Virus record (IMG/VR): IMGVR_UViG_3300025099_000049
Coordinates: 1 to 40,019 of that record
Direction: 5' to 3' (one strand)
DNA length: 40,019 bases
Source of the DNA: a virus
Positions within the stretch are counted from its first letter, which is position 1; every line of letters begins with the position of its first letter. A model generated the notes under the pieces. That model saw only the letters and a program-made list of their open reading frames with translations. It made no database searches and was not told the origin of the DNA. The position numbers and the translations under genes are program-made. Shown here piece after piece: positions 31,194 through 33,470 of this stretch.

Positions 31194-31484
31194 TTACTTA
31201 ATTCTTGCTATTAATCTGTTCCATAAAACTTTTAATGCAATTGCTCCAGTAAGCGGGACGACTCCGTTTCCCAACGCTTGTAAGCGTTCTGATCGATAGG
31301 TATTGGCAAGCTCCAGCCAACTGGCACTCCCATCAGCCATTCGACAAAATTCGGGTTGAGCCTCTTTTTCAACGGCTGGGGCGAGGTCGGGTCGTTGTTC
31401 GAGGATTCGTTGCCATTCTTCTGTTTCGCTTGGGCCAAGGGGCCAGTATATATACTCGCATTCGCTAGTTGATCTAGTCGGCAT
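31194..31484 (-). CDS. C-terminal fragment of DNA cytosine methyltransferase
   Basis: This ORF is in the same frame as the N-terminal methyltransferase ORF (31527-32069) but separated by 42 bases with three in-frame stops (TGA, TAA, TAG). Its end contains RMADGSASWLELANTYRSERLQALGNGVVP, which matches motifs IX and X (R-x-x-x-L-x-x-L-G-N-G/A-V-V-P) of C5 methyltransferases. It may be translated from ATG 31484 and join the N-terminal fragment as a split enzyme, or be part of a decaying gene. It also overlaps the second-frame gene 31232-31843. Confidence 0.7.
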   Translation of the reverse strand: MPTRSTSECEYIYWPLGPSETEEWQRILEQRPDLAPAVEKEAQPEFCRMADGSASWLELANTYRSERLQALGNGVVPLTGAIALKVLWNRLIARIK

Positions 31485-31843
31485 TTGCCATCCTTTCTAA
31501 CAATAGTGTTATATGTGCCTTTGTAGTCACGCATTGCTGGAGTAGGCCAAGATGAAGACTCTTTTTCTAAGATGGGTGCTACCCACATCTCTTGCCGAAA
31601 ACACTCCCCACTGTGCATCGAACCCCATTTCGGAAAGCTCTCCGAGTACGACTGACATGAATTTGTTAGAAAGGAGTCCTGCGACGTTTTCGATAAAAAG
31701 ATACCTTGGTCGTACTTGGCGAATAATTCGGCAGGCTTCAAAGAAGAGTCCTGACCTTGTGCCTTGCTCAATTCCTTTTTGCTTGCCTGCGACTGAGAGG
31801 TCTTGACATGGGAAGCCGAAAGCGACTGTATCCACGCATCCAT
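31232..31843 (-). CDS. overlapping-frame protein at the methyltransferase locus (203 aa)
   Basis: From ATG 31843, preceded by GGTGAG eight bases upstream, this frame encodes 203 residues without a stop while the methyltransferase frame is broken. It includes SLSASHVKTSQS, LFAKYDQGIFLSKTSQDSF, SESFPKWGSMHSGECF, SSSWPTPAMRDYKG and RLNPNFVEWLMGVPVGWS. From memory, these fit a family of phage proteins that sit next to or over dcm genes. So the same 600 bases code for two recognisable proteins over long parts. Role unknown; perhaps a methyltransferase partner or target-recognition unit. Confidence 0.65.
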   Translation of the reverse strand: MDAWIQSLSASHVKTSQSQASKKELSKAQGQDSSLKPAELFAKYDQGIFLSKTSQDSFLTNSCQSYSESFPKWGSMHSGECFRQEMWVAPILEKESSSWPTPAMRDYKGTYNTIVRKDGKCRLDQLANASIYTGPLAQAKQKNGNESSNNDPTSPQPLKKRLNPNFVEWLMGVPVGWSLPIPIDQNAYKRWETESSRLLEQLH

Positions 31844-32069
31844 TGAAGCGCTCACCGTCGAAGGTTGCAACGTCACTCCATATAGGAGCTTCACCCAGGG
31901 TCTTGTCTTCCATCCTCGCCACGAGTACGGACGCGGCGTAGGCTTCCCGCTCGATGTAACAAACAGTTCGACATTTTGGAAAAACAAGCCGTATCGCGCT
32001 ATCAAGTCCACCGATTCCGGCGAAGATAGACAGTACTCTCTGGGGATGTAAAGCCACATAATGCTCCAT
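31527..32069 (-). CDS. dcm: N-terminal part of DNA cytosine-5 methyltransferase (Dcm-like)
   Basis: The 180-residue ORF contains motif I SIFAGIGGLDSA, motif IV with catalytic cysteine GFPCQDLSVAGK, motif VI as IENVAGLL, and motif VIII SARDVGSTHLRKRVF, which together form the SAM-binding and catalytic half of a C5 methyltransferase. The ORF ends at a TGA just after motif VIII, before the target-recognition domain. The C-terminal part with motifs IX/X follows in frame at 31194-31484. Either it is a split enzyme or a pseudogene. The phage may protect its DNA from restriction with it. Confidence 0.85.
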   Translation of the reverse strand: MEHYVALHPQRVLSIFAGIGGLDSAIRLVFPKCRTVCYIEREAYAASVLVARMEDKTLGEAPIWSDVATFDGERFNGCVDTVAFGFPCQDLSVAGKQKGIEQGTRSGLFFEACRIIRQVRPRYLFIENVAGLLSNKFMSVVLGELSEMGFDAQWGVFSARDVGSTHLRKRVFILAYSSNA

Positions 32070-32087: not shown

Positions 32088-32332
32088 TGTGCGGGATTTG
32101 TGCGGGATAATGGCTTACAATGGGTCACAACCGCACAGTGTCGCGGAAGTAACCCGTTGTAAAACCAATGTTTAGAAGAGCTTAAAAATCGAGGGGATAA
32201 CTCATATCCGTAGTGTCGGGGGTTCAACTCCCTCCACCGCTATTAACTTTTTGTCAATAGATTCAACGACTTGTGAGCCTTCTTGTTTATCCTTCGCAAC
32301 GTAGTCAAAAGAGTGTGCGGGATTTGTGCGGG
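32088..32332. other. attP region with paired arm-type repeats and tRNA/tmRNA 3' end
   Basis: The sequence near 32215-32243 (GGGGGTTCAACTCCCTCCACCGC) reads like the T-arm and acceptor 3' strand of a tRNA or tmRNA, the usual crossover core for phage integrases, overlapping the 3' end of the integrase gene. On both sides lies the same 19-bp direct repeat TGTGCGGGATTTGTGCGGG (32088-32106 and 32314-32332), itself made of two TGTGCGGG units. Such flanking repeats are typical arm-type binding sites for tyrosine integrases. Confidence 0.7.
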
Positions 32333-33470
32333 GTAGATTTTCGTTTGCCGGCACAAAAGTGAAGGTTTTTCGCTCCACCAGCTTGTCCACAGCATCGACT
32401 AACGACTCCACAATATGCGTTCTAAACGCATAATCTGCGGTCACTCCCTTGACTGTATGCCCCATTAAAATGCTGATTGTATCCTTACTCACCTCGTACC
32501 CGCCGAGCCTGGTAGAAAACGTCGTCCTAAAATCGTGAAAGACAACATGTTCCAAATTTACCAGTTTCCTAATTCTCCTAAAAGAAGTTGAATTAAGTTT
32601 TCTAATAGGCTGCCCCTCGTAAGTAAAAACAAACTCAGGGTGCTTGCCACGATTTCTTTCAATAATTTCCTTGGCAATTGAATTGAGGACGACCAGCTTC
32701 GGCTTTTTGTTTTTGTGATATTCCCTTGGAATGCGAAACGCTTTAATGTCCAGCGGTTTTGGAAAAAGAATTTCCCAACTCCATCGCAGCTCTGTAATCT
32801 CACAGGTGCGAGCGCCAGTATTCAAACTATACAGAGCGGCATCCCTAACATGGCAAGGCAAAGCATTTAGTAGGCGATCCTGCTCTTGCCAGCTTAAAAC
32901 ATAACCCTCTCTGGCATCCATATCAGAATTGACGTTATGCTTGACCTTTTCTGTTTCAAAATTATGACGGCGATTTCGCCAAGGCACTCCATGCTCTTCT
33001 TTTCTCATTGCCGTGTTTAAAATGTTGCCTACTAAATTTATAAAATGATTAATAGTTTTAGCTTTCTGCTTTTTCTCTTTCCTGCTCTCAATAAAAGGCT
33101 CGATAGTGCTATGATTAATATCGTTGAGTGGAGTCTCCAAAGGTAAACACCACTTCATTTGCTCAATCATGCGCTTTTCCACTTGCCGCGCTTTATTATT
33201 CTTTTTCCTAAAAAACAACGCAACCGCATCGCCATAAGTTTTCCCTAACATTTCTGGCGGCACAGCCAGGTTATTTATCTTCAGATATTTCATGCGATCC
33301 TGTCTTTCGCGCAGCTCAACTTTTTTCTTCTCTAACAACACTTGAGCCTTCTTGACCTGATCTGTTTTAGTCGTACCTCTTAGCTCTTCGCCACCAACTT
33401 CGGTGTGGATATGAATCTTATTTCCTCGCCAGATAAGTCCTGCTGGTAATTTTGGCTTTTTCTTTTGCAT
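32202..33470 (-). CDS. int: tyrosine recombinase integrase
   Basis: The 422-residue protein has the full active site of a phage integrase: R221 (GARTCEI), H312-x2-R315 (FHDFR), H338 (LMGHT) and Y347 (TADYA), with a lysine-rich strand (about 254) between. The N-terminal part contains the arm-binding and core-binding domains. ATG 33470 follows AGGAGG by seven bases. The last residues (VEGVEPPTLRI) are encoded by the tRNA-like attP sequence, so integration would replace the end of the gene with host sequence. It mediates site-specific insertion into, presumably, a host tRNA or tmRNA gene. Confidence 0.93.
   Translation of the reverse strand: MQKKKPKLPAGLIWRGNKIHIHTEVGGEELRGTTKTDQVKKAQVLLEKKKVELRERQDRMKYLKINNLAVPPEMLGKTYGDAVALFFRKKNNKARQVEKRMIEQMKWCLPLETPLNDINHSTIEPFIESRKEKKQKAKTINHFINLVGNILNTAMRKEEHGVPWRNRRHNFETEKVKHNVNSDMDAREGYVLSWQEQDRLLNALPCHVRDAALYSLNTGARTCEITELRWSWEILFPKPLDIKAFRIPREYHKNKKPKLVVLNSIAKEIIERNRGKHPEFVFTYEGQPIRKLNSTSFRRIRKLVNLEHVVFHDFRTTFSTRLGGYEVSKDTISILMGHTVKGVTADYAFRTHIVESLVDAVDKLVERKTFTFVPANENLPRTNPAHSFDYVAKDKQEGSQVVESIDKKLIAVEGVEPPTLRI

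Follow-up and report, generated by a model that had tools for sequence, protein, structure and literature searches.

How should one read a methyltransferase gene whose own frame is broken by three stop codons and whose bases are also covered, in the +1 frame, by a long open reading frame? The gene in question lies at positions 31194-32069, on the minus strand, of a virus record of 40,019 bases (this whole stretch of DNA is called the window), and an initial annotation had considered for it real dual coding, an open frame that outlived a dcm frame, and a ribosomal frameshift fusing the two. The answer that we argue for here, and which we regard as likely, is that the locus encodes a cytosine-C5 DNA methyltransferase spread over two overlapping frames, called A and B below, whose chains would assemble in trans like those of M.EcoHK31I. 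The features on which this reading is built are collected in Table 1.

Table 1. Features of the candidate two-frame methyltransferase locus; positions are those of the window.
Feature	Position	Strand	Support or remark
A1, frame-A catalytic piece with C5-methyltransferase motifs I-VIII	31527..32069	-	matches to PF00145, TIGR00675 and M.HhaI
GGAG before the overlapping B ATG (32059) and A GTG (32057)	32064..32067	-	AGGAGG in L003 and AAAGG in L040 at the same place
B, +1-frame polypeptide with the VIII-IX (putative target-recognition) region and motif IX	31232..32059	-	L003 and L040 share the start and the open frame; phrog_1008; substitution constraint
WPTPAMRDYKG motif in B, where the VIII-IX region of B begins; runs over the end of A1, near two A-frame stops	31517..31549	-	
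Three in-frame A stops: TGA 31529, TAA or equivalent 31511, TAG 31499	31497..31529	-	break the A chain
Shine-Dalgarno-like AAAGGA, 6 nt ahead of the A2 ATG	31491..31496	-	same site in L003
A2, the C-terminal part in frame A, with LGNGVVP at 31274-31254 as motif X	31194..31484	-	phrog_29583; conserved in L003 and L040
Motif-IX-like segment LNPNFVEWLMGVPVGW in B	31313..31360	-	aligns to M.HhaI motif IX

Frame A runs from an ATG at 32069 to a first stop at 31529-31527, and the piece that it encodes, A1, matches PF00145 (4.9e-36, profile positions 2-162 of 324) and TIGR00675 (1.3e-30), has M.HhaI (residues 13-172) as its closest solved relative, and carries the catalytic PCQ at about 31811-31803. 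The GTG at 32057 is a more likely start for A1 than the ATG at 32069, because GGAG lies 6 nt upstream of it and a GTG occupies the same place in the two closest relatives, L003 (84% identity in A1) and L040, where frame A has no ATG. Beyond the stops, A2 is an ORF of 96 amino acids from an ATG at 31484 and matches phrog_29583 (1.8e-8, at 399-460 of 468). Frame B, the +1 frame of A, is stop-free from upstream of 32227 down to 31232, which bears out, and in fact extends, the open stretch from an ATG at 31843 to 31232 that was first described. Its start may be the ATG at 32059, which overlaps the A GTG as ATGTG, or the internal ATG at 31843, a choice that stays uncertain because L040 has no ATG at the position equivalent to 31843. 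The database searches proposed for both frames took A to PF00145 and B, on its own, to the PHROG families phrog_1008 (3e-19) and phrog_27243 (9e-12). Of the motif order first given for the dcm frame, I-VIII, the stops and then X hold, and motif IX belongs to frame B instead of A; the second frame does possess family-like motifs, namely those of the VIII-IX region and IX, and not a complete methyltransferase set of its own.

Could frame B be open by chance? When the A codons of the window were shuffled synonymously 500 times with protein A kept, frame B acquired a mean of 4.7 stops per 180 codons and was never stop-free, and across 185 loci, most of them picked by B, it is stop-free over a mean of 267 codons, against 4.3 stops left by synonymous shuffles of the A codons and 14 in the third frame. 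Since loci selected by B are biased towards an open B, a second set was fetched by frame A alone; there, B has no stop from VIII to IX in 65 of the 66 loci in which motif X was found and no IX in A (a count that takes in the earlier A-selected loci, L003-L013). Many of the A-selected loci carry B stops early in the catalytic region, with B opening mostly 100-125 codons before the end of motif VIII, and in more distant relatives such stops occur only upstream of an internal start. Start sites are enriched in B in that region, where an internal ATG with a Shine-Dalgarno sequence was counted 24 times in frame B, 6 times in frame C and once in frame A; in most B-selected loci B begins 4 bases downstream of where A does, as ATGAATGAG.

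Substitutions indicate which of the two frames is read by selection. Among 40 independent pairs, the raw fractions of substituted sites (multiple hits uncorrected) at A codon positions 1, 2 and 3 are 0.131, 0.064 and 0.244 over motifs I-VIII, 0.411, 0.185 and 0.188 from VIII to IX, where the third position of B is free, and 0.178, 0.086 and 0.193 from IX to the end, and 64 pairs give the same pattern; therefore selection reads A in the core, B between VIII and IX, and both frames at IX-X. Four-fold sites of A change at 0.181 over the 60 codons that lead up to the end of VIII versus 0.355 just upstream, which suggests that the third position of A is held back ahead of VIII, where B would be translated; four-fold sites of B change at 0.408 from VIII to IX. 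Within the window's own trio, the first, second and third A positions over I-VIII show 43, 22 and 38 changes of 168 between the window and L040, and 36, 20 and 35 between L003 and L040; positions 1 and 3 change about equally, and both frames are therefore constrained across I-VIII, the constraint on the A2 piece being read from few substitutions. The dual coding that the initial annotation had entertained, on the understanding that missing constraint in the second frame or stops among relatives would speak against it, is thereby supported: B is constrained, it is open beyond chance, and relatives keep it stop-free from VIII to IX.

The same figures deal with the suspicion that B seems conserved merely through the conservation of protein A. 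Reading conserved A motifs in +1 does yield B-like strings over IV-VIII and X, as the translations make visible, and part of the B-frame similarity over motifs IV-VIII is such a by-product, but the stops of the window clade break A and spare B, and from VIII to IX the constraint sits in B and not in A. For that interval the by-product reading was rejected, and as an account of the whole locus we give it practically no probability.

If B carries the selected sequence between VIII and IX, what does frame A do there? It has no stop over this interval in 191 of 195 loci, whereas synonymous shuffling of the B codons predicts 27. The frame is thus maintained in readable form even though hardly any constraint acts on its amino acids there; normally, it would seem, frame A links VIII to X through this stretch. 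The interval holds 3 A stops in the window, 3 in L003 and 10 in L040, the last figure equal to the shuffled expectation. Motif X restarts in the window and in L003 from an AAAGGA followed by an ATG, and in L040 an AAAGGA again precedes the A2 ATG, but at another site that is not homologous; this restart argues for a chain split in the clade of the window, L003 and L040, so that three polypeptides would be made, with motif X beginning anew at the Shine-Dalgarno-led ATG. The stops of the window, and those that L003 and L040 carry in the same interval, could also be taken as marks of decay, the dcm frame being a pseudogene and the open frame a residue or an accident. We find this very improbable, given that all three trio members conserve A1, B and motif X, that chance openness of B is rejected, and that A2 keeps its Shine-Dalgarno ATG even where the flanking sequence is non-homologous. 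The earlier idea that the open frame outlived the dcm frame fits less well for the same facts, A1 and motif X being kept in the closest relatives and A2 having its own led ATG.

A ribosome could in principle produce one continuous chain by making a +1 shift out of A into B around motif VIII and returning to A close to X, so that I-VIII would come from A, the VIII-IX region and IX from B, and X again from A. Programmed frameshifting of this kind would explain why selection switches frames precisely at these borders and why the spacing from IX to X resembles that of ordinary single-chain enzymes, but it needs two opposite shifts, and the sequence upstream of the putative shift site speaks against it: B is open there for about 100 codons or more ahead of VIII in most loci, it is enriched in ATGs with Shine-Dalgarno sequences that a shift would not need, and it is constrained ahead of any shift site. 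Frame A, moreover, is stop-free through VIII-IX, which a shifted ribosome would not require. The fusion by frameshift that had been suggested is thus the less fitting account, and we consider it unlikely; separate overlapping subunits describe the data better.

What the B subunit would contribute can be judged from its motifs. The segment RLNPNFVEWLMGVPVGWSLPIPIDQNAYKRW aligns to RKLHPRECARVMGYPDSYKVHPSTSQAYKQF of M.HhaI (shuffle p 0.0015), and hhalign of B against canonical IX-X chose the same columns at low probability, the motif IX match being short. A canonical motif IX, RKLTPPEKERLQGFPEGW, is found in frame B of L009 and has its counterpart in frame B of L010, motif X lying in A in both. 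In these two loci (L009 3843-4738, L010 2868-3892) the motifs alternate between two open, overlapping ORFs, B holding I and IX and A holding IV-VIII and X, and B of L009 also matches PF00145 at motif I. PF00145 covers A to about motif VIII only. An AlphaFold model of the A chain of L212 has a confident core and motif X helix, with 161-253 mostly at low confidence and no small domain in the model, and a Foldseek search with it returned M.HhaI first over about 165 columns. In the AlphaFold model of the window's B alone, the chain is mostly unfolded (mean pLDDT 62) except for the IX helix and a C-terminal helix, and no target-recognition fold is seen; a PDB profile search with B yielded nothing useful. 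It could be proposed that B is an overprinted protein with a role of its own, such as regulation or anti-restriction, and has no part in completing the methyltransferase, and it is consistent with this that Pfam and NCBIfam profile searches gave no match for B alone and that MSW-type loci are constrained in the N-terminal part of B too. Against it stand an A chain without motif IX or a predicted small domain, a B chain with an IX-like segment, the canonical IX in B of L009 and L010, and the end of B, which in most loci falls about 21 residues past IX; we hold this proposal to be quite unlikely, more so than frameshifting.

How far does the arrangement extend? More than 200 related loci from phages, plasmids and bacteria were examined; the layout is conserved among them, and nearly all, the A-selected set included, have B open between VIII and IX. 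L003 and L040 both show A1, the stops and a newly started piece with motif X, along with an unbroken B, and in all 13 annotated phage or plasmid loci matched by B, frame A encodes a C5-methyltransferase that an open B overlies, both ORFs being annotated in phage K1G and B alone in a Sphingomonas plasmid. The WPTPAMRDYKG motif class recurs in many related loci, with B third positions free there. A five-sequence subset of B was used as query, the broad B alignment having too few conserved stretches, and it matched at least 600 viral stretches, of which at least 558 were confirmed, and 190 genome stretches, of which 137 were confirmed; the DNA of the window, searched at the DNA level against phage records, gave just two short matches (88%). 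Motifs were called by regular expressions that miscalled motif VIII in some loci (VIII end near 100), which alters individual rows and not the direction of the totals. The two-frame layout occurs in hundreds of phages and bacteria, and is more general than the initial annotation supposed. Other arrangements were also seen: L261 has IX and X both in frame A and WPTP units in a frame B that then stops, L256 has an extra frame change with motif X in frame B and an IX-like segment in frame C, and in L011 and L014-L018 an ORF of its own encodes the IX-X end of an ordinary C5-methyltransferase, resembling the M.AquI split.

In the two-frame enzyme that we favor, motifs I-VIII, which make up the core that binds SAM and carries out catalysis, would be translated from frame A together with motif X. 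Frame B, with a separate start that lies either within the A gene or where that gene begins, would yield motif IX and the region that serves in ordinary enzymes as the target-recognition domain, by which B would set the target sequence; the two chains would then join in trans to form one enzyme active in methylation, as the two subunits of M.EcoHK31I do. Most relatives would keep A stop-free over VIII-IX only so that a linker holds motif X on the core, and in the clade of the window that constraint would have been lost, stops accumulating and motif X becoming a third small polypeptide from its Shine-Dalgarno-led ATG. With somewhat less confidence, we think it probable that many 'dcm' genes of phages and prophages, now annotated as a single enzyme, encode multi-subunit methyltransferases in two frames, with specificity residing in an overlooked overlapping gene, the window clade having a three-polypeptide enzyme from one DNA stretch. 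Long same-strand dual coding with selection in both frames has rarely been established in prokaryotes, and here the parts of one enzyme are shared between frames with the border visible in substitution data. If true, the specificity subunit of many phage methyltransferases is wrongly annotated or absent from the annotation, enzymes cloned as a single ORF may lack activity, and the family offers a tractable model for how genes become split between frames.

The flank of the locus has features of its own. At 32194-32241 of the window (+), GGGGATAACTCATATCCGTAGTGTCGGGGGTTCAACTCCCTCCACCGC resembles the 3' half of a tRNA with the anticodon loop CTCATAT and lies partly within the integrase gene (32202-33470, minus), at the 3' end of that gene; ARAGORN found no whole tRNA at this stretch, which is probably the phage attachment core. 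A 22-base direct repeat, TGTGCGGGATTTGTGCGGGATA (32088-32109 and 32314-32335, 95% identical), flanks it, and the two copies are possible integrase arm sites.

How does the locus relate to known systems? Within the part of the literature searched, no description of widespread two-frame C5-methyltransferases was found. A1 agrees with an ordinary PF00145 enzyme in motifs I-VIII, including PCQ and ENV, but such an enzyme carries the variable region, IX and X along with I-VIII on a single chain, whereas in the window IX falls in B and a distinct A ORF encodes X. The nested two-frame layout is like that annotated by the depositors of Kagunavirus K1G, where ORF31 and ORF30 are a C-specific methylase and a nested Mte8-like protein, although A is continuous in K1G and its record states no function for the nested ORF. 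Frame-B proteins of this kind match phrog_1008, phrog_27243 and phrog_26627, whose labels ('DNA methyltransferase' or unknown) omit the overlap with the catalytic gene. The beta chain of M.EcoHK31I, which recognizes YGGCCR, was reportedly found by Lee, Kam and Shaw in 1995 to be read in another frame within the alpha gene. Two split enzymes serve as the nearest models: M.AquI, with motifs I-VIII and part of the variable region in alpha and the rest with IX-X in beta, and M.EcoHK31I, a two-polypeptide C5-methyltransferase with I-VIII and X in the larger chain and IX in the smaller (PMC3404938). The window shares with M.AquI a natural break after motif VIII and a separate C-terminal chain (A1 and A2), but IX and X share one chain in M.AquI, and here IX is in B and X alone in A2. 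Compared by description, M.EcoHK31I has the arrangement of the window and most relatives, with I-VIII and X in one frame and IX in an overlapping one; it differs in that its target-recognition domain is assigned to the large chain, whereas here VIII-IX is constrained in B and not in A, and in that the window's large chain is itself split by the three A stops.
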